The notes beneath the pieces are model-generated. The model had not been told where the DNA came from and ran no database searches. It saw nothing but the letters and a program-made list of their open reading frames with translations. 53,444 nt of DNA from Candidatus Micrarchaeota archaeon CG10_big_fil_rev_8_21_14_0_10_45_29 (GTDB lineage Archaea; Micrarchaeota; Micrarchaeia; Anstonellales; Anstonellaceae). The stretch covers positions 1-53,444 of the forward strand of contig PFCD01000001.1 of the NCBI GenBank assembly GCA_002778455.1, read 5' to 3'. The position numbers and the translations under genes were made by a program. Below are positions 22,141 through 52,321 of the stretch, one piece after another (position 1 is the stretch's first letter; each line of letters begins with the position of its first letter).

Positions 22141-23133
22141 ATGCGTTTCCATATTATTACGATGGTAACCTCTATTGGCATGGGTTTGACTAATGACTGC
22201 AACCTAAACTGTCCACATTGTTATTCCCGCCCGTTGAAAAAAAGCAGCATCACTCTGCCCCAAATAGAAAACATAATCAAGAAATATCCGGGGGTAAGGG
22301 ATATAAATCTGGGCACCGGGGAAAGCATCCTGAACCCATCCTTTAGAAAAATAACCGGTTATATTCTTTCAAAGGGCATACATCTAGGGCTGACCTCAAA
22401 TGGAAAAACAGTAAACGATATGGATATGGAACTCTTGATGAGCTTACACGATGTAGACATATCACTTGATTATACAACTGAAAAAAAGCACGATGCATGG
22501 AGGGGTTTGAGCGGCACATTCAAAGGGGCGTTGAAAGCAATAGAGCGGTGCAAAGAGGCCGGGATAACTACTTCGATAGCGATGGCTTTGATGAATATAA
22601 ACTACAAGGAGCTGCCAAAATTCAAAAAACTTCTTGATAAGTTTGACTGTTGTTTGCGAATAAACATATACAAACCAGTCGGGAAAAACAACTTTTCATT
22701 ATCATACTCTCAATTCTGGGATTCAATAAAGCAGATGGCCGACCATTTTTTTCTAAAGAGCTGTTCCGAGCCCGTATTGGCGCTGATTGTCCCGGATATG
22801 GTGATACGAAGATCTCCTTGTGGGGCTTCAATTCGGATTCATCCGGATCTGACAGAAACATCCTGTGTATATGTAAATGGTGAAAAAGTAAGCAGGAATG
22901 AGTTCAACAGCTTAAAAATGAAGCTTCCGATTGCATGCAAAAGTTGCAGAGTCATGCTGCAGTGCGGGGGAGGATGCCTCGGAAGAAGGATACTTGAAAA
23001 TCGAGTGAATAAACCCGACAAGTACTGCCCGATTCCGCTTAAACTTGAAGTACCAACCATAACATTCACATATCATCCGGAAAGAGGGGACTTTATCCAC
23101 GCAGGTTATCTCTGCACTATTATTCTAAGGTAG
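22141..23133 (+). CDS. Radical SAM/SPASM domain protein, peptide-maturase type
   Basis: CNLNCPHCYS (CxxxCxxC) and SPASM cysteines C-x14-C ... CKSCRVMLQCGGGC (Cx2Cx5Cx3C) ... C. Confidence 0.92.
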   Translation: MRFHIITMVTSIGMGLTNDCNLNCPHCYSRPLKKSSITLPQIENIIKKYPGVRDINLGTGESILNPSFRKITGYILSKGIHLGLTSNGKTVNDMDMELLMSLHDVDISLDYTTEKKHDAWRGLSGTFKGALKAIERCKEAGITTSIAMALMNINYKELPKFKKLLDKFDCCLRINIYKPVGKNNFSLSYSQFWDSIKQMADHFFLKSCSEPVLALIVPDMVIRRSPCGASIRIHPDLTETSCVYVNGEKVSRNEFNSLKMKLPIACKSCRVMLQCGGGCLGRRILENRVNKPDKYCPIPLKLEVPTITFTYHPERGDFIHAGYLCTIILR

Positions 23134-23137
23134 TTTT

Positions 23138-24064
23138 ATGTTATATAAAGGCAGCACGGTTTCAACAAATAACACTATCAACATATTTAGCAACGACAGA
23201 AAGGTCATCAATTTTTTGAAGTCCAGCCAGTTTAACCAAGAGTTCATCCCATCCTATTCTTTCAGTGAGAAAACAGTGAAAATGCCAGCACATTCCTTGT
23301 TTGTGGAAACCATATCCGAAGGGAAAGAGATGTTTAAAACAAGGAAGGGCGAATCACGTATACAGGCATCGGAAAAAAATCTCTATCTCCCAGACATCAC
23401 ATTTTTTCTCCTTTCCCTCTTCTCCAGAATACAATTGGAAAATAATAGCCTGGTAATGCATTCATGCGCCCTTGATTACAAATCCAAGGGTTTTTTAATT
23501 ATTGGCGGGCGCGGCGATGGAAAAAAAGAACTGGCACTCGTGGCTGCGATAAACGGGGCGAAGGTAGCTTCTTGTGAGAATAGCGTGCTGTGCATGGCAA
23601 AAGACGGGCATCCCTATGTTATTGACGGGACCAACCTGATGCATGTCGACTCTTCCCAGGTTCTTGATAAAGAGGCAGCAGAAAAACTGCGCACCCAAGA
23701 CGAAAAACAGGTTATATCTGCGGAAGACTTCAAGAAACTGGGCATAAAACAGATAAAAACCACAAAAATTGACTATGTGTTTTATGCGAAAATCCTGCCT
23801 AGAAGCGATATATCGGTCATAAAACCTCTTTCATGGCCAGACAACTTACTGAGACTTTATGGGAACACAGCTACATATCTATCGGGTGCAAACAATATAT
23901 TCATATCAAACTCCAGGCCATTTCCAAATCTAGATAACAAAAGACTCAGGCAATCGAGGCTGGCTGTCGCGAAGAATATTTGTAATCATACTCTCCATTT
24001 TGAGATTTGTGGAGAACCGCAAAAAGCAATAGAGTTCATGGATTCGCTCTCCGGGAGTTGTTGA
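23138..24064 (+). CDS. HprK-like P-loop protein with degenerate Walker A
   Basis: MHSCALDYKSKGFLIIGGRGDGKKELALVAA resembles HprK C-domain layout; paralogous to the 26125-27066 product, both with YLxGAxxxxxxxxRxFPxxDN. Confidence 0.7.
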   Translation: MLYKGSTVSTNNTINIFSNDRKVINFLKSSQFNQEFIPSYSFSEKTVKMPAHSLFVETISEGKEMFKTRKGESRIQASEKNLYLPDITFFLLSLFSRIQLENNSLVMHSCALDYKSKGFLIIGGRGDGKKELALVAAINGAKVASCENSVLCMAKDGHPYVIDGTNLMHVDSSQVLDKEAAEKLRTQDEKQVISAEDFKKLGIKQIKTTKIDYVFYAKILPRSDISVIKPLSWPDNLLRLYGNTATYLSGANNIFISNSRPFPNLDNKRLRQSRLAVAKNICNHTLHFEICGEPQKAIEFMDSLSGSC

Positions 24065-24081
24065 ATTTGGGATCAGGACAT

Positions 24082-25338
24082 ATGCAGCAGAAACAAAGTT
24101 TTGCAATAGTCGGCGGGCAAGTCTTGAGAGGAAATGGCTTCAACCGTGCAGATGTGCTCGTGGAGAATGGTCTCATAAAAGGAATAGGCAATTACAGGAG
24201 TACACAGAACAAAATTGACGCTGCTTCGTGTTTCGTACTTCCGGGGTTCATAAACACGCATGCCCACCTTGGAGAAACAATATTCAGGGATGCTGTTAAA
24301 TTCTCGAACTTAAACGATTATATCGAAAAAACCGAGAAAATAAATGCGCTGCTAAGCGGCAAAAGCAAGCTTCTGCGTGAAATTTCTGGCTCCAACACAA
24401 TGCTTGAATTCATTCATTCAGGAATCACAACTATCTGCGCGGGAAGATGCGCCCAAGAGTGCGAATCGGCAGGTCTTAGGTCGTTTTCCGGATACATGCT
24501 CATGCAAAGCAAAAAGTTGCAGAAATATTTCACAAATTTTGAGTCGGAATTCAAGAATTTCATCACCGAAATCAACAATACCTTGCTCTCAAAGCCATTT
24601 CTTTTTCTTCACTCTCTGACATATTCAACTAGTGGAATGATAAATTTGGCAAGGAGATTAATCCAAGAGAGAGGCATTCCGCTGATGGTGCATGTGGCTG
24701 AAACCCTTGAAGAAGAAACGCGTGTAAAAGAGGAAACTGGGGTGAGTTCGGTAAAGTTTCTTGAGAATAATGGCCTCATTACGAACTCTACGCTGTTAGT
24801 GCATTGCTGCAATATTTCAGATAAAGACATGGGAATAATAAAGCGGAGAGGAGCCACAATCGTTTTGTGCCCCACGTCTAATGTGAGGTTGAATAACCAA
24901 ATCCCGCCATTTGATAAGATGCTGAAGCAGGGAATCAATCTCTGCATTGCCACTGATGGTCTTGCTACTGCTCTTTCAAAAAATATCCTCTGCGAGTGCT
25001 TATTTCTGAAAAAGGAATTTAAAAGAGTAGAATCTTTCAACTGGATGAATCTGATTACTACCAATCCAGCCAGAAGCTTGGGAATCCGCAGCGGAAGCAT
25101 GTATGAGGGGAGCAGTGCGGATATTGTCATTTTTGGGCCGGATAAGGCAGCAAATGCCAAGAAAATAAAGAGAGATGATATAATAGATTTCGTTTCGATG
25201 CTGGAAGTCAGAGATGTCATCTGTGCCGGAAAGGAGGTTATGCGAAACGGGGAGGTAACCACTATTGACGAAAAAAAGATACATGCTTCATTTAATGCTC
25301 TCAACCGCTCCATAAAAGATTTGGAAACCCAAGCTTAA
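24082..25338 (+). CDS. Amidohydrolase-superfamily deaminase/hydrolase (TrzA/ATZ/MtaD-like)
   Basis: NTHAHLGE (HxH), MVHVAETLEEETRV, HCCNISD, CPTSNVRLN, ATDGLAT metal-site motifs. Confidence 0.88.
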   Translation: MQQKQSFAIVGGQVLRGNGFNRADVLVENGLIKGIGNYRSTQNKIDAASCFVLPGFINTHAHLGETIFRDAVKFSNLNDYIEKTEKINALLSGKSKLLREISGSNTMLEFIHSGITTICAGRCAQECESAGLRSFSGYMLMQSKKLQKYFTNFESEFKNFITEINNTLLSKPFLFLHSLTYSTSGMINLARRLIQERGIPLMVHVAETLEEETRVKEETGVSSVKFLENNGLITNSTLLVHCCNISDKDMGIIKRRGATIVLCPTSNVRLNNQIPPFDKMLKQGINLCIATDGLATALSKNILCECLFLKKEFKRVESFNWMNLITTNPARSLGIRSGSMYEGSSADIVIFGPDKAANAKKIKRDDIIDFVSMLEVRDVICAGKEVMRNGEVTTIDEKKIHASFNALNRSIKDLETQA

Positions 25339-26147
25339 GGTTTTTTCGCCACAATCAGCACATATACCGGTATATTGGAAATATCCTCCTCAAGCCTCAG
25401 ATTTCTGTGTATCCACTCCAACTCATTTTGATGCAAGGGCTTTTTGTTGAAGACAGATATCTCAAATCCCGTTGATTTCAGCAGATCTTCATATTCGGCA
25501 TGGTTGAGTGGGAAATGCGTCTCCTTGTATTCCATCTGAATATCCAACCTGTCTTTTTTAGTTACATACTCTGCTAAGAGATCAAAAGAAACAGAATATT
25601 TTGTTTTGCCTGTCTTCTCAAAAAAATATTTCTTGTACTCAAACTGCCTGGCAAATTTCACCAATCCCCCAAGTGCCGGAGAATCAGAAATTGTTATGTT
25701 TCCATAGTCCGAGCGCATCCCTTCCCAGATGATGGCAACTCCTCCTTTGGTCAGGTACGAATGCACATTCCTAAAGGTCTGATACACATCTGCATTGTTG
25801 GAGAACGAGACGATTTCATGCAGTGATGCGGGGAAGATTACATTGTTCACTTTAGACGCCAATTCTACCGGGCTCTGGGCGAGCGAGTTGTAGAATACGC
25901 AATTTGGAATATTCTTCCGTTTGGCAGCCGCTATCATCCTAGAATCTGCATCAATGCCGTATAGGGCGGCGTCCGGAAATGCATGTGACATTCGTTTCAG
26001 GACTTGGCCTGAGCCGCAACCAATCTCGAGTATAGGACCGTCGCCAATGTATCGAAAAAACTCCTCTTTTTTCCTAGCGTCTTTCCGAAGGGTCTGCATC
26101 AATTTTGAAAGGTCTATGTCGCTCCTATTTAGCTTCAAAGACTTCAC
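25335..26147 (-). CDS. Class I SAM-dependent methyltransferase
   Basis: Motif I GPILEIGCGSGQVLKRM and downstream YGIDADSRMI. Confidence 0.9.
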   Translation of the reverse strand: MKSLKLNRSDIDLSKLMQTLRKDARKKEEFFRYIGDGPILEIGCGSGQVLKRMSHAFPDAALYGIDADSRMIAAAKRKNIPNCVFYNSLAQSPVELASKVNNVIFPASLHEIVSFSNNADVYQTFRNVHSYLTKGGVAIIWEGMRSDYGNITISDSPALGGLVKFARQFEYKKYFFEKTGKTKYSVSFDLLAEYVTKKDRLDIQMEYKETHFPLNHAEYEDLLKSTGFEISVFNKKPLHQNELEWIHRNLRLEEDISNIPVYVLIVAKKP

Positions 26148-27066
26148 CTATTGTTCTAACAATATTCTGAAGATTTGCCCTCAGAACAAAAATATCTGCC
26201 TTGGACACAATAGACTCTATTAAATTCATTCTATTGGCGGAAATTTCCATATTGTCAAAGGAAGGAAACTGGCGATTGAGTGTGATAACGACACCGGATG
26301 CCCCTCTGAGGTACGTTGATGTTTCTCTGGCTAGTAAGAGAGATGCCATGTCTTTGGATAGTTTGTTGAAAATGAGCGTCTTTGAATCATCCAGCAGAGA
26401 GATGAAGAATATGCTTGATATTTTCGGGGGGTTGGTTTGGTCCGGAGTCCATTTAAGGTCCAAGATTATCTTCCCTTTTTCAGTTTTTCCAATAATCAAC
26501 GGCTCGATTATATCAAGAGTTTCCTTGTTCAGGCCGCTGTATATAGAAGGGCGAATTGACAGGTAATTTGTTCCAGCGAAAATGGCAGGGCCAGATTCCG
26601 CCGAACCAATTACGGTTTTGTCATTTGACAGAAAAGTATAGTTTCGAAGATATAAGTTCAAAAGGACCGTTGTCTTCCCGTTACCAGAGTCACCCAATAG
26701 GAGACCTGCATTCTCGTTCTTACCAAAAGCAGCTCCATGAGTTGTAAACTTCCGGTCTAAGCCATGCTGTTTTTCCAACAAAAACAATGCAAGATATACC
26801 AAATCAGGAAAATGGAGATTGTTGATCGGCGCCGAAAGGCGTATGGCTTTCTTTTGAAAGGAGAGTTTTTCCTTGCCGTCAAAATAACTCAGCGAATATT
26901 CCGCATTCGGCATCGGTTTTTTATTGAATCGGTATCCTGCAATAGATTCTTCTACAAACGGGTCTTTTTGAAAATAATTCTTGATGCGCGCGGAGTTTGT
27001 GTGTATGTTAATTTTTGAGTTCAAGGATGAAACGCTGAATGCAGCATGCAATCTAGGTTTGCGCAT
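26125..27066 (-). CDS. HprK-like P-loop ATPase/kinase
   Basis: Intact Walker A GLLLGDSGNGKTTVLLNL after THGAAF; same length and layout as the 23138 product. Confidence 0.75.
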   Translation of the reverse strand: MRKPRLHAAFSVSSLNSKINIHTNSARIKNYFQKDPFVEESIAGYRFNKKPMPNAEYSLSYFDGKEKLSFQKKAIRLSAPINNLHFPDLVYLALFLLEKQHGLDRKFTTHGAAFGKNENAGLLLGDSGNGKTTVLLNLYLRNYTFLSNDKTVIGSAESGPAIFAGTNYLSIRPSIYSGLNKETLDIIEPLIIGKTEKGKIILDLKWTPDQTNPPKISSIFFISLLDDSKTLIFNKLSKDMASLLLARETSTYLRGASGVVITLNRQFPSFDNMEISANRMNLIESIVSKADIFVLRANLQNIVRTIGEVFEAK

Positions 27067-27112
27067 TATACTACCCTACACATATATTAACCGAGTATCT
27101 TAATAAAATAGT

Positions 27113-27802
27113 ATGGGAAATTTCAAGGTTTTGATCACTGATTGGGGGAACACGTTGTGCAGCACCAGTGTGAATTATGAAAACATAGCCGAATCGGCAG
27201 CCGGAATATTTACCAAGAACGGCGTTCCAATGAGTGCCACGGACTATGCCAGGATTTCAAACGAGGTTAGACTTGAACTTCGAAAGGAACTGGCTGGGGA
27301 CATCAAGCGCCACTCGCTTGGCATCCACGAGAAAAGAATCGCCACAAAACTCGGCAAGGAATTAACCGCAGAAGCGGCGGCAGCGATAGACCGGCAGATA
27401 TTTGACGCCTACCTGCAGTACTGCCACCCAAGGGGCGGAGCCAAGCATTTCCTCGAGGAAATCCGGAAGGGAGGGTTAAAGGTCATCTTGGTATCAAATT
27501 CCAATTTATTCAAGTTAAGCAATGAAATCAGGAAAATCGGATTTGACAAGTATCTTGATGATGTCATATGCTCCGAGGCATGCGGTCACGAGAAATCGGA
27601 GGGAACCCCGTATCGCCTTGCCATGGAAAAAGCTTTTAAGAAAAAATGGGCTTCAAAGGCATCCGAATTTTTGGTCATCGGAGACCGTGAAGAAGAAGAC
27701 GGTGCTGCCAGAAAATTAGGCATCAAAGTTGTTATCCTAAATAGCGCGTTGCCAAGTGAAGCAGAATTTGATAAAATACTGGGGGAGTTGTTGAGCGTAT
27801 AA
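27113..27802 (+). CDS. HAD-superfamily hydrolase
   Basis: ITDWGNTL motif I, VSNSN motif II, FLVIGDREEEDGAARKLG motif IV. Confidence 0.85.
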   Translation: MGNFKVLITDWGNTLCSTSVNYENIAESAAGIFTKNGVPMSATDYARISNEVRLELRKELAGDIKRHSLGIHEKRIATKLGKELTAEAAAAIDRQIFDAYLQYCHPRGGAKHFLEEIRKGGLKVILVSNSNLFKLSNEIRKIGFDKYLDDVICSEACGHEKSEGTPYRLAMEKAFKKKWASKASEFLVIGDREEEDGAARKLGIKVVILNSALPSEAEFDKILGELLSV

Positions 27803-27883
27803 TGTGTCTAAGCTATCTGAACCATAAATTTATACTGCATTTAACTCTATAGTTTATATATCTCATAGATAAATTAGTAATAC

Positions 27884-29365
27884 GTGTCAAAGAGTGGTTG
27901 CTTAGTTCACTTAGTAAGGGCAAAGAGTGCCAAACCAACAAACAGGTTCTATCCTAATTTGGCTCTTCCTACACTTGCCTCAGTACTTAGGGATAAGTGC
28001 AAGGTAGAGATTCATGACCTTGGGCAGTCCGAAAGAGCTAAATATATTGAGCATGTGCAGAATACAAAACCGAAAGCAATAGGTTTCACTTCATTCATTG
28101 ACGATTTTGGAGATGTTCTATCACTTGCTTCTGAATGCAAAAATGTTTCTGAAAATTCGTTTATCATTGTTGGGGGTCCCCACGTTTCGGTATTGGGGGG
28201 TTCGAATGCCACAATTTCAAAATTCATAGATTTTGCCGTAATTGGCGAGGGGGAAAACACCATATGCAAGTTAATTCAGATGCTTTCGGATTATGGAAAC
28301 CCCCAAAAGACAGGCCAGACACATGTCGTGTGGTCCGAGAGTTTCTATAACCTCGAGTCTGCGCTTCCGCCAGCATGGGATTTGTATGACCGGACACCGT
28401 TTTTCCCGGTATTGCCGGTTGAAACTGCTAGGGGGTGCCCATATCTATGCAAATATTGCGGTGAAGGATGGATGTACGGGAAAAAAGTAAGAGCAAAGAA
28501 TATTGAACAGGTCGTCAGAGAATTGAAAATCAATGTTGAGGAAATGGATGTAAGATTTTTCCGTTTCACAGATTCGGTGCTTAATTTTTCAAAAAAACGT
28601 TTTCTTGAGTTATGCAGGGCTTTTATCGACAGCAAACTGGAGATTCGTTGGAGTGCCTACGCCCGTTTCGAGACTATCGAGCCAAGTTTCCTAGCCATTG
28701 CAAAAGAATCTGGATGTGCATCCCTATTCTTCGGTATCGAAAGCGGCAGTGAAAACATCCTGAAAAATGTCAGGAAAAAACTAACAAGCACTGACCATAT
28801 GCGCAAGGTGATCTCAACTGCCAAAGATATTGGTTTGCACACACATTGTAACTTCATAGTCGGTTTCCCCGATGAGAGCATCCACTCTGTCGGCGAATCC
28901 ATGCGGCTAATCCGGGATATTAGCCCTGATTCAGTGCACATCAGCACCTTTTTTGTCGTTCCACAAACAGACATGCACATTAACTCTGAGAAATACGGCA
29001 TACAATTCCTTGATCCGAATTGGATAAAAAACCAGCATCTATTTTTTGGCGATTCAACATATTCCTATTTCAGGCACCGTACTATGACACAAGATGATAT
29101 CCGCATGTATTATTCCATCATGAGAAACGAGATAGAACAGATAGAATCGATATATTGGAACATGAAGGACCATGTGCTTCTGACTTGGCTATCTGCAGGT
29201 GGCAGTGAAACCGGATTGAAAAGGATATGGCGCAAACCTGAGCAGTATCTGAATGCATATGAATTAAAACATTTTGAAGCATTTAAAGAAAAAGATATTC
29301 GGAGAGTGGATGATGAGCAGAATAGCAAAAAAGTCATAACAGAATTAGCCCTGAGGTTCAGGTAA
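27884..29365 (+). CDS. Cobalamin-binding-type radical SAM protein
   Basis: N-terminal B12-binding-like Rossmann fold (FIIVGGPHVSV...GEGENTICKL) and ETARGCPYLCKYCGEGW (CxxxCxxC); GTG start. Confidence 0.9.
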   Translation: MSKSGCLVHLVRAKSAKPTNRFYPNLALPTLASVLRDKCKVEIHDLGQSERAKYIEHVQNTKPKAIGFTSFIDDFGDVLSLASECKNVSENSFIIVGGPHVSVLGGSNATISKFIDFAVIGEGENTICKLIQMLSDYGNPQKTGQTHVVWSESFYNLESALPPAWDLYDRTPFFPVLPVETARGCPYLCKYCGEGWMYGKKVRAKNIEQVVRELKINVEEMDVRFFRFTDSVLNFSKKRFLELCRAFIDSKLEIRWSAYARFETIEPSFLAIAKESGCASLFFGIESGSENILKNVRKKLTSTDHMRKVISTAKDIGLHTHCNFIVGFPDESIHSVGESMRLIRDISPDSVHISTFFVVPQTDMHINSEKYGIQFLDPNWIKNQHLFFGDSTYSYFRHRTMTQDDIRMYYSIMRNEIEQIESIYWNMKDHVLLTWLSAGGSETGLKRIWRKPEQYLNAYELKHFEAFKEKDIRRVDDEQNSKKVITELALRFR

Positions 29366-29477: not shown

Positions 29478-30239
29478 ATGGAAAAAGGGAGAAAAGCATT
29501 TGGAAAAGACAAGCTTGAGGAAACATTCAAGCATTTAGGGAAATCTCTCAAGCACCCTGTAAAGGCTTACCTGCTTGGCGGAGGGGCAATGTGCTTTCGC
29601 GACCAGAAGATTGCGACAAAAGACCTGGACCTTGTTTTCAACTCACAAAATGATTTCAATGAATTCGAGCTTGCCCTGAAAACCTGCGGCTATGCAGAGT
29701 CTGCTTTACTGGAGAAAGCCTATGAAGACATGAAGGCATCCGGCATATGGCAAAACAAGGAGGGCTTTCGCTTTGACCTTTTTGTGAAAATAGTGTGCAA
29801 CGCCATTAGCCTCTCGCAAGGGATGCTCAAGCGCTCGGCGCCTCTCGCCAAATACGGCAAGCTTGACATTTGGATGGTTTCAAACGAAGATATTATACTC
29901 TTCAAGGGAATTACGGAAAGGCTGGATGACGCCAACGATATCGAAGCGATTATCCAAAGAGCCAACATTGACTGGAATATCATATTTCAGGAATGCACGA
30001 ATCAAAGCAAGGCTCGTGCATGGTATGGTCCGCTCTATGACAAGCTCGCCGAAATGGAAAAGCGCAATATCCGCATCCCTATTCTCGGGCAATTGCTAAA
30101 GCTTGACAATATGGCAATAGTAAGGGAAGCTTTTGAGGAACAGATTCGCAAAGGGATGAGCCGCAAACAGGCAAGAGCCGCCTTAATAGGGAAAGACTTT
30201 ACAAAAGAAGAGATTGATGAGGCTACCGGCTCGGATTAA
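29478..30239 (+). CDS. Nucleotidyltransferase-like protein (AbiEii/MNT-type)
   Basis: AYLLGGGAMCFRDQKIATKDLDLVF (GG...DxD) nucleotidyltransferase motif; FRFDLFV third acidic candidate. Confidence 0.65.
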   Translation: MEKGRKAFGKDKLEETFKHLGKSLKHPVKAYLLGGGAMCFRDQKIATKDLDLVFNSQNDFNEFELALKTCGYAESALLEKAYEDMKASGIWQNKEGFRFDLFVKIVCNAISLSQGMLKRSAPLAKYGKLDIWMVSNEDIILFKGITERLDDANDIEAIIQRANIDWNIIFQECTNQSKARAWYGPLYDKLAEMEKRNIRIPILGQLLKLDNMAIVREAFEEQIRKGMSRKQARAALIGKDFTKEEIDEATGSD

Positions 30240-31129
30240 GCGGTTCCTGCATCATCCCTCATCCTCTCATAAAATTCAGTTTTCTGCCTCACTTCATCAA
30301 GCGCCCCCTCAACCATATATTCTTTGGCAAAGTTTTTGAGCGCCCTTAAATTCAGCCCGTGTTTGTTTCTGGCAAAAAATATGGTTAGTACCGGCATGTC
30401 TGAATGCGATTTTAGCGTGGCTAAGAGCAGGGCATGAATAAAGCATTCCTCCAAGCTTAATCCCTTCTTCTCTTGATTAAGGTTGAAATAATAGTCATCA
30501 TAAGTTGTCATGAGCGCCTCCAATCCTTTCTCGGCAAGCGCGCTTACTCCTGTTTTTGTGAAATATACGGGAACCTCTTTGGCATCTGTGCGCAAGACAA
30601 CATTCTTTCGGACTCGGACGGATACATTGTGCCCTTTGGCTTTTTGCTGAATCAGCAATTGAAGATTGTCTGCATAAGCAGATGCAAATTCCTTAAGCAG
30701 GGGGTCGGATATTTTTACCTGCCCGCCTTTCCAAAAGAGAACTCCCGCGCCACACATTGCCTTGAGCGCTTTGTAAAGGGTGTTTCTTGAGCATCCTGCA
30801 TCTTTGAGGATTTTCTCTGTCTGGGCGCCATCCGGGCATGAGATGAGAATATCCATCGCATATCCGCAAAGCCATTTCTCAATCCTGGCATTCGGGCGGG
30901 AGTCATAAAGAAGTTTGAAGCGCTGTGCATGGGATGCCATGGAAAGTTTGAGGATTTTTGCAGTGCCTGCCTTTTCGATGTCTATGATGCCTTTCTCTCT
31001 CAGGGTTGAGATGGTGCGGGAAACTGCGCTTGCCGCGCCCAGTTTTTTGGAAAGCTGGCTGGCGCTGGCGGGCTGGGCGCAGAGCTGGCAAAGAGCCAAT
31101 ATTTCTGTTTTTGATAATTTGATACTCAT
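30236..31129 (-). CDS. Winged-helix transcriptional regulator
   Basis: MarR/ArsR-like N-terminal wHTH (ILALCQLCAQPASASQLSKKLG...ISTLREKGIIDIEKAG) and a second wHTH-like stretch. Confidence 0.7.
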   Translation of the reverse strand: MSIKLSKTEILALCQLCAQPASASQLSKKLGAASAVSRTISTLREKGIIDIEKAGTAKILKLSMASHAQRFKLLYDSRPNARIEKWLCGYAMDILISCPDGAQTEKILKDAGCSRNTLYKALKAMCGAGVLFWKGGQVKISDPLLKEFASAYADNLQLLIQQKAKGHNVSVRVRKNVVLRTDAKEVPVYFTKTGVSALAEKGLEALMTTYDDYYFNLNQEKKGLSLEECFIHALLLATLKSHSDMPVLTIFFARNKHGLNLRALKNFAKEYMVEGALDEVRQKTEFYERMRDDAGTA

Positions 31130-43582: not shown

Positions 43583-45241
43583 ATGTTTTTTATATTTCAA
43601 ATAGCAGCCAGCCCGCCGCCAAAGCGGCAGCCTCCAAAAAGCAACTTTCTCTCAATCGCAATGGAGAAGGGGAAAAAAGAGGGAAAAATAGATTCCGGCA
43701 CCGCGGAGAAAATAACAAGCCATGCAAAAATAGCCGCAACAACAATTTCAAAGGAAAAAGAAAATCCAATTCAAAACAGGAATTTTTCCCAAAATTTGCA
43801 GATGCGCGACTCTTTCACCGTAAATTCAAGGCAGGGTTCTTTTGGCATGATGGAACCTGCCCTGGAGGGTGGATGCAACGGCTGCTCAGGAAACCGCGGC
43901 TGCTGCGGAGGCGGCTCAATTTCCATGGAAGAGCTTGTAAAATTCATAGAATATGAGAGCGAACACCCGGATGAATTCGGAGGCGCCGGCTCGGAAGCGC
44001 TTCCGGCAGAATTCAGGAGCATCATGGCGGATTTGTATTCTCTCAAAAAAAGCAAGGAAGAGATGGAAAAGCAGGAGGCAAAGGCAAAGACAAGCAAAGA
44101 GCCCCCAAAGCCGCTGAAAAATTCTGTTGAGGCGGCAAAAAAAGGCACATCCGCATCAAAAAACCCGTTCCAACCAGAAAAAACTTCCCCAGAAACCAAA
44201 ACTGCAAACAACATTTCCCCCAAATTAAGCCTTTTTGAAAAAGGGAAAAACAATGTTTTATCGGCAAAAGAAAATATTTCACAAAAAGGGGCGCAAATAA
44301 AAATAAATCCCATTTACAAAAGAAAAATGGTGAAAATGCAGCCGCCGAAGGAAACAACCGCCGCGGAGAAGGCGGGAATTCTCTCGCTTTTCGGCACACC
44401 GGGAACAAAAAAGGGGAATTCAGGCAAGCCAAAAATATTTCCGATTTCCCCAAAGCCCCCCGCAGGGGCGCAAAAGGCGATTAATTCCACGAAAATGAAT
44501 TCAAAAAAATCGCAGAAGAGAATTTCCACTTACAGGAAAAATCCGGAGAAAAGCGCAAAGCAGCTTCTTGAGGAAAAAAAGGCGCGCAAACCCAAAAGGG
44601 CAGAACTTCTAAAAGAGGAGAAGAAAAAGCTTCTCAAAAATTTAAAAGAGGAGAAAAAGCGCCTTCTGGAAAAAAGGGACGAACTTGAAAAAATGAAAAA
44701 AGACGCTGAAAATGCGCAAAAGGCAAAACAAGAAAAGCCATCAAAGCTTGCTGAAGAAAAACAAAAAAAGAAAGAAACGGAAGAAAAAAAGAATGCCGAA
44801 AAGGCAGAAAAAAATTCCGAAAAATCCCAAAAACAGGAAAAAGAAATTCCAAAAGAAAAAGAGAAAGGCGCAAAGCAAGGCGAGGAAAAAGAAAAAAGAG
44901 GGGAAAAAGCGCAAGAGAAGAAAAAAGAAAACAGCGCCCAAAAGAAAGTCGGGGAAGAAGCCAAAGAAAAGCAATCCCCAAAAGAGGAAAAGAAAAAAGA
45001 AAGCGAATCCAAAAAAGAAAATCAATATTCCCGGGAAAAAGAAAGCGCCCTGCCCAAAGAGGAAAATAAAAAGCCGCGTGGGGAAAGAAAAGCCGCTTCC
45101 GCAAAACACTCCAAAAATTATATCGCATCCAAAAGCAAAAACTACCCTGCTTATCCATCCCATCAAAATTCACAAAGGGATAAGGGCGCAAAATCCGCAG
45201 CAAAGGCCCGAAAAAGAGAAAGCCGCAAAGAGGCGGCATAA
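43583..45241 (+). CDS. Cys-cluster protein with long Lys/Glu low-complexity tail
   Basis: GGCNGCSGNRGCCGGG cluster followed by SISMEELVKFIEYES and ~200 aa of K/E-rich sequence; the alternative ATG at ~43661 is also plausible. Confidence 0.65.
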   Translation: MFFIFQIAASPPPKRQPPKSNFLSIAMEKGKKEGKIDSGTAEKITSHAKIAATTISKEKENPIQNRNFSQNLQMRDSFTVNSRQGSFGMMEPALEGGCNGCSGNRGCCGGGSISMEELVKFIEYESEHPDEFGGAGSEALPAEFRSIMADLYSLKKSKEEMEKQEAKAKTSKEPPKPLKNSVEAAKKGTSASKNPFQPEKTSPETKTANNISPKLSLFEKGKNNVLSAKENISQKGAQIKINPIYKRKMVKMQPPKETTAAEKAGILSLFGTPGTKKGNSGKPKIFPISPKPPAGAQKAINSTKMNSKKSQKRISTYRKNPEKSAKQLLEEKKARKPKRAELLKEEKKKLLKNLKEEKKRLLEKRDELEKMKKDAENAQKAKQEKPSKLAEEKQKKKETEEKKNAEKAEKNSEKSQKQEKEIPKEKEKGAKQGEEKEKRGEKAQEKKKENSAQKKVGEEAKEKQSPKEEKKKESESKKENQYSREKESALPKEENKKPRGERKAASAKHSKNYIASKSKNYPAYPSHQNSQRDKGAKSAAKARKRESRKEAA

Positions 45242-47548: not shown

Positions 47549-47914
47549 AACACACCTATTTTTCCAATATTTTTAAGCATTTAGTGCATCAGACCGTCCG
47601 TCTCTCGTCATAACCCCATCCTTCATTCAGCAAAAGTGTTTCTTTTGGGAATGAAAGCACTTTTTTTTCTGAAAGAAAAGGGCTTCGAGATCACACTCTT
47701 ATCATCATTTGCGTTTATTATGTCTCACTTTAGCTTAATATTCATATCATTCGCTCAGACGAGCCGCTAATAGGTTTTTTTGGGGCAAGCCCCGGCATTC
47801 TGCAGCAGCCTTTTTCTATTAAGAAAAAGTGCATATGCCTTTTTTTTGGAAAGAAAAATGGCTGGGGAGACAAATGGTTTTTAAATGCCCCCTTAGTTGT
47901 TTATTGGGGTAATA

Positions 47915-50900
47915 ATGAGGGAAAGCGATCCAGATGATTCCAGCCAGGATGCCCTCCACAAAAGGAAAAAGGGCCTGTATTCACAATCTCCAATGGACAT
48001 TTTATCAGAATTAAGGAAAAAACACGGCAGGCATAGGGGAATAGGCGCGCAAGAAAAACATGCCCCGCCTTTGGATAAAGACGGGAAAACCGGGCTTGAG
48101 GAGAAATCTTTGCAAGACTATTTTCCCCCCGGCGCTGAAGATAGCGGCGAGGGCGGGTTTGAGCCGGTAGAGGTGGGTGAAATCATCCCACGGGAGAAGG
48201 AGGGGGAGCAAGAGCCCAAAGAGCATCTTTCAATAAGGCAAAAGGTTGAGGGCATACTAAAATCCCCGAAAAGGGCGGCAATTGAGAAAACTCCGAGCAA
48301 AATAACCGAATTTGATACAAATTCCCTTGAAAGCTATGATTTGTCTGCAAAAGATTTCGGAGGGGAAGAGGCGCAAGAGGGGAGGCGCAGGGATTATGAT
48401 TATGCAAAGCCCGAAAAGCGAGGCGGGAGTCAAGAGGAAGATTTTGGGCAGGAAGGCGAATTTGAAGGGCTTTCTGGCACTGGCTCTTACGGCAACCCGG
48501 CTGATGATGGAGATGAATCTGAGAAAGAAGAAAAGGGAGAAAAAACGATACATGACTATGATTTGGATGAGGATGATTTTGCGCCCCGCACAAGGGACGC
48601 ATTAAGCGAATTTGAAGAAAGAACGCTTGAGCATTTTGAAACAGGGCAAAAAATTGAAAATTTGCCCCGCCCGCCAATTCTTCCAAAAGCAAGGGGGGGA
48701 AGGCGGGTGCGCGTTGCGCCTGAAGCGAAATATTTTGAGGGGAGCGGGGAGAGCGGCAAATCCCCCAAAGATTATGATTTAAGAAAAGAGGATTTTGAGG
48801 GAGGCGGAGAGGAGGAAAAATCAATTGAAGATTATGGCCTGAGCAAAGAAGATTTTGATGAAGGCGGCAAATCCCTCGAGGATTATGATTTAAGAAAAGG
48901 GGATTTTGAGGGCGAGGAAGAATTTGGCAAAGCCGGATTTTTGCAGGAAAGCGATGCAGAATATTCAGCGCAAAGCGAGGATGAATCCGGCGCAGATGAA
49001 TTTGCAGAAGATGAAAAAACCTTGCATGATTATGATTTGGACGAGAAAGACTTTGAAAAAAATGATTCTGCGCACCTTTTCGCGTCCCTCTCAAAAGGGA
49101 AAAAAGAAGCTCCCCCCGCAAAACTTCAGGTATCAGAAATAGGCGCCCCGATAATTGAGGCAGAGCAGATACCAAAGGAATTGCAGGATGAGATACGCCT
49201 CCCTTTTGCAGGCGGAAGCTCGAACCTAACGGCAGAAGAGGAAGAGCAGCCGGAGAATGACTCTGACTGGGAAGTTATGCATGCGCCGCAAAGCGCTCAG
49301 GCGCAGAGTGCTCCGCAGGAAGCAGAATTTGAGGGAGAGGAACAATTTACATTGAGCGAACCCATACAACCCCCCTCCATTATGCAGATGCATCTTGTGA
49401 AAAAAGGGGGGGGCGGGCTGTTTGCAAGCCGCCCGAAAATGCTAAACATGAATACCGCCCTCTACCGCGAGGGTGGGGAGGAGCCGATTCCGCCCCTGCA
49501 TTCTGCAGGCGCAATGGCGCACATAAAAAAATCAGGCGGGGTGCTGTCCATATTTTCAAAAAAGCCGTCCGAGGCAGGGCAGCTGCATTTCATATCCGCT
49601 GCGCGCGAACCGCCAAAACAGCCGCAAAAAATTTATCAGGAAGCATATTCCCAAAATGAAAAAATCATGCACGAACCTGCGCATGAAAAAAATGAGCTTC
49701 CCCAAATATTCCAGCCGCTGCATCTTCATATGCCAAAAGTGAGAAAATCCGGGGCATTCGGAATTTTTGCAGCAAAGCCAAAGCAGGCTGGCGCGCTTGA
49801 GGCGCATGCGGGAATAAGAAAACAAAAGAAAAAAGAAAAAAAACCCTCCCTATATTGCCCGAGCATGCACGAGGTGAAAAAATCACAGGCGCTTCCGTTT
49901 TTCTCCCCTTCACCCAAAAAGGCAAATTCGCGCCTTCTCTTTTACCAGCCAAAAAAGCGCAAAAAAGCAGAAAAGCGCAAGCTATCCCTTCCCCGAGGCA
50001 GCATGCATCTTGTGAGAAAAAGCGCAAAGCTTCCAATATTTTCCCCTTCCCCCAAAACGCAAAACACTCATCTTGGCACAATAATAAAAAAAGAAAAAAA
50101 GAAAATTCCCCTGCCAGAGCCGCAGGCGCTCAAAATGCACCCGGTGCACCAGCACCTTTCGGGGCAAATTCCTTTCTTTGCAAAAGAGCCAAAGCAGGCA
50201 AAGCAATTGCATGAAATAAAATTAGAGCAAAAGAGGGGGGAGCCCATTGCAGCCCCGCGGGGGGTTGAAATGCACCATCCCGCGCATTCTGCGCCCATTT
50301 TGCATATTTTTGAGAAAAAGCCCGCGCACGCCCCCTCAAGCCTGAGGCAAATGCCCCTCAAAAAGCCGATTCCCCCCGAAGTTATCATGGAGAAGCAGGA
50401 TACTAAACAGAAGGAAAAATTAATAGAGGAATTTTTCACAAATTCCCCGCAGCCGCAGGGGAAAGCCGGGCTGGTGCAAAAAAAGCTGCGCACCCCTCTT
50501 CACCCTGTGCATGTGAAAATGCAAAAGCACCCCTCGCAGGGGTGGGGGCTGTTCCGCCATTCCCAAAAGCCGGATGCGCACCGGGGCAAATTTAATCCAT
50601 TGCATGAAGAGCAAAAGCAAAATGAAATAAGTGAAGAGAAAAAACAGCGTGAAATTTTGCAGGCGCAAAAAGAGGCGCAAGAGAAAAAACAGAGTGAAAT
50701 TTTGCAAGAGAGGATGCGTGAGCAGGAGAAAATAAAGAGTGAGAGAACGCATGCCCGCAAAGAGAGCCGGCACAAAATGTTTGCAGGCTTATTCTCCCCG
50801 TCCAGAAAGCATGCTAAAGTGGAGGATTTCAGCCATGTTGCAGGGCCAGTAAAAAAAGCGCCTGCCGGCCCGCCATCGCGCCTGGGCATGAGAAGGGTGC

Positions 50901-52321
50901 CGCAATATTCGCCGGGTTTCTCTATTTTCAAAAGCGGGCCGCATCCCCTGTCTCACAGGGAAAAGTTTTCTAAAATAAAAATAGAGCAGCCGCCAAAGAG
51001 GCAGCCGCACCCTTTTTACAGGCCGCAGGCAACCGGTATGCAAAAAATAAGCGCATACCGCGAGGGCTTCTCTTTGTTTGGAAAGGCAGAGAAGCCGGCT
51101 GCACGCCACATTCCTCTTGAGGCAGAAATTGAGGAACAAGGGCAAACTTTGGCAGAGGAAATTAAGGAGAATAAAATTTCACAAATTCATGAAACCTCTC
51201 CGGAGAGGGAAAAGCCGGGAGGAATGAAAACGCGCGCAAAGGCGCATGAATCAGAAGGCGAGATATTGCAGTTGCAGCCGCCCGCCCCCCAAGAGAAGGA
51301 GGGCTCCCCCGGTTTTGGGGATTTTCTAAAAGGGACGGAAATCGGCAAGCCGGCTGCAGCAGCATCGCAAACTTCGCCATCAATCATGCCCAAAAAGGGC
51401 GCAAAAATATCCCAGCCCGGCATAATGGACGGGCAGAGGGCAATCCTTCCAAGCGAAGTTTCAATGCCTTCCACAAAAGGAATCAGCAAAAGCGAGTGGA
51501 ACTCGCAATATAGGCGCGAGCTCTCAAGGCCGGTGCCAACGCGCGCGCAGGTGGATTCATATTATGAGTCCTCTCCCATAGAACAAAAAAAATATTTGCA
51601 CGCACTCTCCGTGGAAGAGGCATACTGGAAATACGCAAACAGCCCCAAATCCTCAAAAAAGCATCTGGAGAGCCAGCAAAAATTCATGGCAATGCTTGAG
51701 AACAGCAGCCCGGAGCAGAGGGTTGCGATAGAGCAGTGCATTAACCTTACAAAGGCGGTAAGCGCAGTGAGTGTTTTTACAAACCCAAGCGTGCTTGCCG
51801 CCCAAAGGGAGGAGGCGCACGCAATATATATAAGTGTGGTTGGACAGCATCCGGATTTGCATCCGCTTGTGCAATACCAGGTGGCGCGCCTTGCGCTAAT
51901 GAAGGCGCACAACCCAGATTCATTCTCCCCCCCTGCCGATTATCTGCAGTTTATGCGGCTGCTTGATGATGATTTGCGCTGCTGCGCACATGCAATGCGC
52001 GCCGCATTTCTTGACAGGATAATGAACAATAAGGGAGCAAGCCAGCCTTTGCGCGAATGGGCCGCAAAATATTATTCCCAGATTTTGCTTGCAATGCCCC
52101 ATCTCTCAGCAAAGCTGGGGATATGCCTGAAGGTGCACCGGGGCTTTGAGCTTTTCTTTGCAAGCCAGGCGGCAAGCACGCTTGAGGAGGAGAGGGTGCT
52201 GCGCGAGAAATGGCAAAGGCTTGCAAATGAGGATGGGGACGTGAGGCTAATAATATTTTACGAGCTTGCCACCATATTTTACGGCAAGGCAAGGGGCAAC
52301 AGGGAGGAAGAAGAGGAATAA
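47915..52321 (+). CDS. Very large repeat-rich putative scaffold protein
   Basis: ~1,468 aa, no signal peptide; acidic DYDLxxxDF motif repeats then ~11 basic MHxVKKSxxxxIFSxxPK repeats and an ordered helical C-terminal domain; start ATG 47915 with TATA-like tttttaaatg ~30 nt upstream. Confidence 0.85.
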   Translation: MRESDPDDSSQDALHKRKKGLYSQSPMDILSELRKKHGRHRGIGAQEKHAPPLDKDGKTGLEEKSLQDYFPPGAEDSGEGGFEPVEVGEIIPREKEGEQEPKEHLSIRQKVEGILKSPKRAAIEKTPSKITEFDTNSLESYDLSAKDFGGEEAQEGRRRDYDYAKPEKRGGSQEEDFGQEGEFEGLSGTGSYGNPADDGDESEKEEKGEKTIHDYDLDEDDFAPRTRDALSEFEERTLEHFETGQKIENLPRPPILPKARGGRRVRVAPEAKYFEGSGESGKSPKDYDLRKEDFEGGGEEEKSIEDYGLSKEDFDEGGKSLEDYDLRKGDFEGEEEFGKAGFLQESDAEYSAQSEDESGADEFAEDEKTLHDYDLDEKDFEKNDSAHLFASLSKGKKEAPPAKLQVSEIGAPIIEAEQIPKELQDEIRLPFAGGSSNLTAEEEEQPENDSDWEVMHAPQSAQAQSAPQEAEFEGEEQFTLSEPIQPPSIMQMHLVKKGGGGLFASRPKMLNMNTALYREGGEEPIPPLHSAGAMAHIKKSGGVLSIFSKKPSEAGQLHFISAAREPPKQPQKIYQEAYSQNEKIMHEPAHEKNELPQIFQPLHLHMPKVRKSGAFGIFAAKPKQAGALEAHAGIRKQKKKEKKPSLYCPSMHEVKKSQALPFFSPSPKKANSRLLFYQPKKRKKAEKRKLSLPRGSMHLVRKSAKLPIFSPSPKTQNTHLGTIIKKEKKKIPLPEPQALKMHPVHQHLSGQIPFFAKEPKQAKQLHEIKLEQKRGEPIAAPRGVEMHHPAHSAPILHIFEKKPAHAPSSLRQMPLKKPIPPEVIMEKQDTKQKEKLIEEFFTNSPQPQGKAGLVQKKLRTPLHPVHVKMQKHPSQGWGLFRHSQKPDAHRGKFNPLHEEQKQNEISEEKKQREILQAQKEAQEKKQSEILQERMREQEKIKSERTHARKESRHKMFAGLFSPSRKHAKVEDFSHVAGPVKKAPAGPPSRLGMRRVPQYSPGFSIFKSGPHPLSHREKFSKIKIEQPPKRQPHPFYRPQATGMQKISAYREGFSLFGKAEKPAARHIPLEAEIEEQGQTLAEEIKENKISQIHETSPEREKPGGMKTRAKAHESEGEILQLQPPAPQEKEGSPGFGDFLKGTEIGKPAAAASQTSPSIMPKKGAKISQPGIMDGQRAILPSEVSMPSTKGISKSEWNSQYRRELSRPVPTRAQVDSYYESSPIEQKKYLHALSVEEAYWKYANSPKSSKKHLESQQKFMAMLENSSPEQRVAIEQCINLTKAVSAVSVFTNPSVLAAQREEAHAIYISVVGQHPDLHPLVQYQVARLALMKAHNPDSFSPPADYLQFMRLLDDDLRCCAHAMRAAFLDRIMNNKGASQPLREWAAKYYSQILLAMPHLSAKLGICLKVHRGFELFFASQAASTLEEERVLREKWQRLANEDGDVRLIIFYELATIFYGKARGNREEEEE

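Follow-up and report, generated by a model that had tools for sequence, protein, structure and literature searches.

We analysed a window of 53,444 nucleotides, positions 1 to 53,444 of contig PFCD01000001.1 of Candidatus Micrarchaeota archaeon CG10_big_fil_rev_8_21_14_0_10_45_29, which is contig C6 of a genome of 1.15 Mb, 84.65% complete. It carries a cassette of seven enzyme genes (Table 1): two radical S-adenosylmethionine (SAM) enzymes, two HprK-like proteins, an amidohydrolase, a methyltransferase and a HAD-family hydrolase. The reading we prefer, to which we give about even chances, is that this is a mobile seven-gene pathway which makes or tailors a small non-ribosomal metabolite, probably phosphorylated and possibly derived from a nucleotide. 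Such a substrate is favoured because of the genes found beside relatives of the cassette and beside isolated HprK-like genes, and because no small open reading frame (ORF) is common to the related loci.

A seven-gene unit in two genera

We searched 301 Micrarchaeota genomes with the first radical SAM enzyme (rSAM1), the second HprK-like protein (HprK2) and the B12-binding radical SAM enzyme. The full cassette was found in two of them only: the source genome (G000) and that of a Ca. Micrarchaeota archaeon of another genus (G018), whose contig 115 (locus L005, also labelled L015) has all seven genes in identical order and orientation, with protein identities of 53-74%. Nonsynonymous divergence (dN) from L005 is 0.17-0.34, with synonymous sites saturated, and all seven genes are, judged from these sequences, under purifying selection.

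The similarity to L005 ends at the cassette border on the side where this can be tested; the sister contig stops 790 nt past the B12 radical SAM gene, and there is no similarity there either. The left-flank gene is not found in 19 other members of the family, and a nucleotidyltransferase and helix-turn-helix pair on the right flank occurs in four related genomes that do not have the cassette. Since the order is intact in another genus and the flanks are unrelated, we concluded from this comparison that the cassette is a horizontally mobile, co-inherited unit and not a chance run of genes. A preliminary description of the window, made from the letters alone, had considered that homologues scattered among relatives would speak against a common pathway: the opposite was found, as all seven stay together in G018.

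A radical SAM subfamily with a common tail

The core motif CxxxCxxC of rSAM1 reads CNLNCPHC. Cysteines C220, C235, C259, C262, C268, C272 and C289 are invariant in the alignment with L005 (74% identity) and fit the auxiliary-cluster pattern Cx9-15Gx4C-Cx2Cx5Cx3C-C. The SPASM model PF13186 is matched by homologues of rSAM1 and not by rSAM1 of the window; we label it a SPASM enzyme because of its cysteine pattern and of these homologues. A further cysteine lies in its tail, where a C-terminal HxxYLCTxI motif is common to seven proteins, bacterial homologues included (the YLCT subfamily). These seven form one clade in the tree (support 99/98, n=7): the enzymes of the two cassette Micrarchaeota, those of the genomes G162 and G260, and plasmid enzymes of Streptomyces clavuligerus, Phaeobacter and Enterococcus. 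The bacterial relatives were drawn from plasmid sequences, against which tblastn returned full-length homologues including the C-terminus; a five-sequence profile yielded the two further Micrarchaeota members (E ~ 1e-180). The radical SAM enzymes of G162 and G260 are of bacterial type and group with Phaeobacter, which suggests that the YLCT radical SAM gene has been transferred between domains.

Among known SPASM equivalogs (MftC, GeoRSP, NirJ, Ahb and others), the best score of rSAM1 is 81.8 of 265 bits, and it stays far under every curated cut-off. With the mycofactocin enzyme MftC, GeoRSP and the heme enzymes NirJ/Ahb it shares the radical SAM core and the SPASM cysteines, whereas it belongs to its own YLCT-tailed clade and its cassette has no cognate peptide or heme genes. 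An AlphaFold2 (AF2) model of rSAM1 had a pLDDT of 44 and was not used. Scans of viral contigs gave no meaningful relatives and tblastn against phages only generic radical SAM matches; a reading as a defence system was rejected, the viperin matches being at superfamily level only.

The neighbours of the YLCT radical SAM gene in the relatives recall the cassette in part. G260 (L054) has an amidohydrolase (41% identity), the YLCT enzyme and a B12 radical SAM enzyme, followed by a small pyrophosphatase-like protein and an HprK-like protein; in G162 (L053) the YLCT enzyme, an HprK-like and a pyrophosphatase-like protein stand in one operon. Compared with the cassette, these two archaeal loci possess the pyrophosphatase-like protein, lack the HAD, the methyltransferase and the second HprK, and use another B12 subfamily. 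On the S. clavuligerus plasmid pF1D35B (L031) the order is B12 radical SAM, YLCT radical SAM, APH-type phosphotransferase, HprK-like and pyrophosphatase-like; a HAD and a methyltransferase lie nearby, as in the cassette, whereas the phosphotransferase, an aminotransferase and an ABC transporter are additional and there is no amidohydrolase within 20 kb. The Enterococcus locus (L033) combines B12 and YLCT radical SAM enzymes with a pyrophosphatase-like protein, an AMP-binding protein resembling non-ribosomal peptide synthetases (NRPS-like) and an MFS exporter, and the Phaeobacter locus (L032) the YLCT enzyme with HD-like (read by eye), PhnM-like and pyrophosphatase-like proteins and a MATE exporter. 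This means that pyrophosphatase-like proteins occur in five YLCT loci, HprK-like genes in L053, L054 and L031, and B12 radical SAM genes in L054, L031 and L033. On the Phaeobacter inhibens plasmid, one can notice that the YLCT gene, a short PhnM-like gene (158 bits) and the HD-like gene (13119-15721 of L032) form an unusual setting for PhnM.

The HprK-like pair and the other enzymes

The sequence scores of the two HprK-like genes are weak (TIGR04355, 5e-3 and 6e-5), and that against TIGR00679 (HPr kinase/phosphorylase) is 12 of 240 bits. The AF2 model of HprK2 is confident at residues 105-313, its N-terminal third having low confidence, and the top Foldseek matches of the model are PEPCK and HPr kinase (probability 1.00). 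The assignment of HprK2 is thus made by predicted fold, and HprK1 is taken as HprK-like through its 27-28% identity to HprK2. The P-loop of HprK2 fits GxxGxGK[ST]; its lysine and threonine are kept, and 18 residues further there is an acidic metal ligand. HprK1 fails this test (GGRGDGKK, that is GxxGxGKK, and SCEN): in both cassettes a lysine replaces the P-loop threonine and a glutamate the metal-binding aspartate. Hence HprK1 may be a pseudokinase, a non-catalytic or regulatory partner.

A PDB sequence search with HprK2 returned chance Rab matches only, and scans of genome contigs with HprK1 and HprK2 found nothing beyond the sister cassette. HPr (PF00381) has no match in the source genome, whose incompleteness makes this absence uncertain. 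The cassette proteins share the HprK/PEPCK fold and the P-loop with HPr kinase/phosphorylase and with the HprK-related kinases A and B, which include lasso-peptide kinases; they differ in scoring under the curated cut-offs, in being paired with one degenerate member and in lacking both a genomic HPr and neighbouring lasso cyclase genes. Lone HprK-like genes of Micrarchaeota (L016, 8455-11005; L020, 6950-11330; L019, 325-1812) adjoin HAD, Ham1/ITPase, NUDIX and thymidylate-kinase-like genes, and one of them falls in the same clade as the HprK genes of L053 and L054. These neighbours hint at a nucleotide-related role for the kinase family.

For the B12 radical SAM enzyme, the best NCBIfam model is TIGR04479, the PhpK P-methyltransferase, with which it shares its domain architecture; its score is 170 bits for a cut-off of 600. 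No phosphonate genes were seen in the cassette (PEP mutase was not searched genome-wide), and with so low a score a phosphonate pathway was not adopted.

The preliminary description was right about the seven ORFs and their strands, recovered by an ORF check and by Pfam and NCBIfam matches, and about the stops that interlock at 25335-25338; in the second cassette this gene pair is likewise convergent, with an overlap of 23 nt. Two gene starts were corrected. That of the first radical SAM gene moves from 22141 to 22162, the start conserved in the relative, and the amidohydrolase has its first ATG at 24082, although it may begin further upstream with a TTG, at 24061 or 24007. An AT-rich element resembling ATATATTAA is also present in L005.

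Table 1. Position and main characters of the cassette and its parts (coordinates of the window)
Feature	Position	Strand	Remarks
Cassette, seven enzyme genes	22162-29365	+++, --, ++	Three packed blocks
rSAM1, radical SAM/SPASM enzyme	22162..23133	+	PF04055 (5e-19); C-terminal tail FIHAGYLCTIILR
HprK1, HprK-like protein	23138..24064	+	53% identity to L005, least conserved member
Amidohydrolase, deaminase-type, COG0402-like	24082..25338	+	PF01979 (8e-35); 58% identity to L005
Class I SAM-dependent methyltransferase	25335..26147	-	PF13649 (8e-11); 70% identity to L005
HprK2, HprK-like kinase	26125..27066	-	74% identity to L005; P-loop GDSGNGKTT, SNDK motif
Putative divergent promoter region	27067..27112		46 nt between HprK2 and HAD; TATA-like ATATATTAA, read in sequence
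HAD-family hydrolase	27113..27802	+	PF00702 (3e-15); 64% identity to L005
B12-binding radical SAM enzyme	27884..29365	+	PF02310 and PF04055; 69% identity to L005

In the right-flank pair (29478-31129), a nucleotidyltransferase gene of the DUF6036 type converges on a winged-helix gene, their stops being interlocked. It resembles a mobile toxin-antitoxin or defence module and, since it occurs alone in related genomes, was left out of the cassette as an independent module. Further on, ORFs of 552 (43583-45241) and 1474 amino acids (47897-52321) lie in strongly purine-skewed DNA and have no Pfam matches.

The nature of the substrate

In the pathway that we propose, rSAM1 would abstract a hydrogen atom, after which the substrate would be rearranged or cross-linked; the amidohydrolase would perform a hydrolytic cut or a deamination; methylation of carbon and heteroatom positions would fall to the B12 radical SAM enzyme and the methyltransferase; HprK2, with HprK1 as its degenerate partner subunit, would phosphorylate a hydroxyl of an intermediate; and the HAD would take the phosphate off.

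Several observations weigh against this proposal. The pyrophosphatase-like protein of the relatives was not found in either cassette genome, and the B12 radical SAM enzyme is of another subfamily than theirs (23% identity); therefore the product of the cassette may differ from that of its relatives. The cassette has no exporter. Motif I of the HAD, DWGNT, is without the usual second Asp at D+2; active HADs with DxG, such as YihX, exist. The link to nucleotides is indirect, the proposed substrate being read from gene context, and clusters for ribosomally synthesized and post-translationally modified peptides (RiPPs) are known with HprK-like kinases and also with SPASM enzymes.

An alternative compatible with any reading of the cassette is that the amidohydrolase takes no pathway step and recycles the by-products 5'-deoxyadenosine and S-adenosylhomocysteine (SAH). 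Three cassette enzymes consume SAM, and the closest curated models are those of the archaeal deoxyadenosine/SAH deaminase group; the cassette protein reaches 166 of 609 bits against the 5'-deoxyadenosine/SAH model, whereas a separate DadD-like gene of the same genome (contig C9) reaches 420. The cassette enzyme has the COG0402 fold and the metal ligands (HxH/H/H/D) of the 5'-deoxyadenosine and methylthioadenosine-SAH deaminases, but aligned with the DadD-like gene its substrate-side segments differ and are partly lost. It belongs to a separate subfamily present in exactly three of the 301 genomes (G000, G018 and G260; 727-795 bits, next best 176), each time beside the YLCT radical SAM gene. 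If independent, the chance that all three would fall within the four YLCT genomes is about 9e-7, a figure that makes the case look too strong, two of the three being related. As its metal ligands are kept but it differs from the genome's own deaminase, we infer that the amidohydrolase is a pathway enzyme, and the recycling role seems doubtful to us.

In a RiPP pathway, rSAM1 would cross-link a ribosomal peptide encoded elsewhere, which HprK2 would phosphorylate and which would also be methylated. The preliminary description leaned towards ribosomal peptides, which are frequent substrates of SPASM enzymes; HprK-like kinases occur in lasso-peptide clusters, and peptide maturases are among the closest curated models of rSAM1. 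No precursor peptide was found near the cassette enzymes: a comparison of the seven related loci gave no common small ORF beyond chance (best E 0.005 for about 280 queries). Neither has the PqqD-like domain, or RiPP recognition element (PF05402), any match in the source genome, with the same uncertainty as for HPr. This agrees with what that description had itself failed to see, and does not support its leaning. The cassette is also devoid of peptidase and cyclase as well as exporter, and the genes around the relatives are NRPS-like, PhnM-like and pyrophosphatase-like, with no precursor. We therefore consider a RiPP pathway unlikely.

Tailoring of a macromolecule or of a cell-surface component (lipid, S-layer glycan, tRNA or protein) would suit an archaeal cassette without exporter, and models of lipid B12 radical SAM enzymes score well (TIGR04072, 138 bits; HpnJ, 112 bits). 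Against it, the cassette encodes neither a glycosyltransferase nor a lipid enzyme nor an RNA-binding domain, its spread is patchy (two of 301 genomes), and the bacterial relatives resemble exported secondary metabolism; we find it unlikely too. Chance clustering of unrelated genes, for which only the mixed strands speak, is refuted by the shared order and orientation, the unrelated flanks and the purifying selection reported above.

Neither the YLCT radical SAM enzymes nor this subfamily of amidohydrolases nor the HprK pair is covered by a curated family, and in the literature searched we found no description of HprK combined with radical SAM enzymes, nor of such a combination in Micrarchaeota or DPANN. 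We found no match of the cassette to a known pathway, in agreement with the preliminary description, which had called it a candidate undescribed cassette. Its parts belong to known superfamilies and their combination appears new. Tentatively, and with less than even confidence, we suggest that the YLCT-tailed SPASM radical SAM enzymes with HprK-fold small-molecule kinases define an undescribed class of natural-product or cofactor pathways in archaea and bacteria. If this is true, a DPANN archaeon would, with the Micrarchaeota version, possess a cassette dedicated to radical SAM secondary metabolism, and HprK-type kinases would gain a new substrate class. DPANN genomes are small, and a cassette of seven enzymes, two of them radical SAM enzymes, that is kept intact between genera calls for an explanation; the pathway can be approached concretely through a definable radical SAM subfamily, tied in both domains to HprK-fold kinases.

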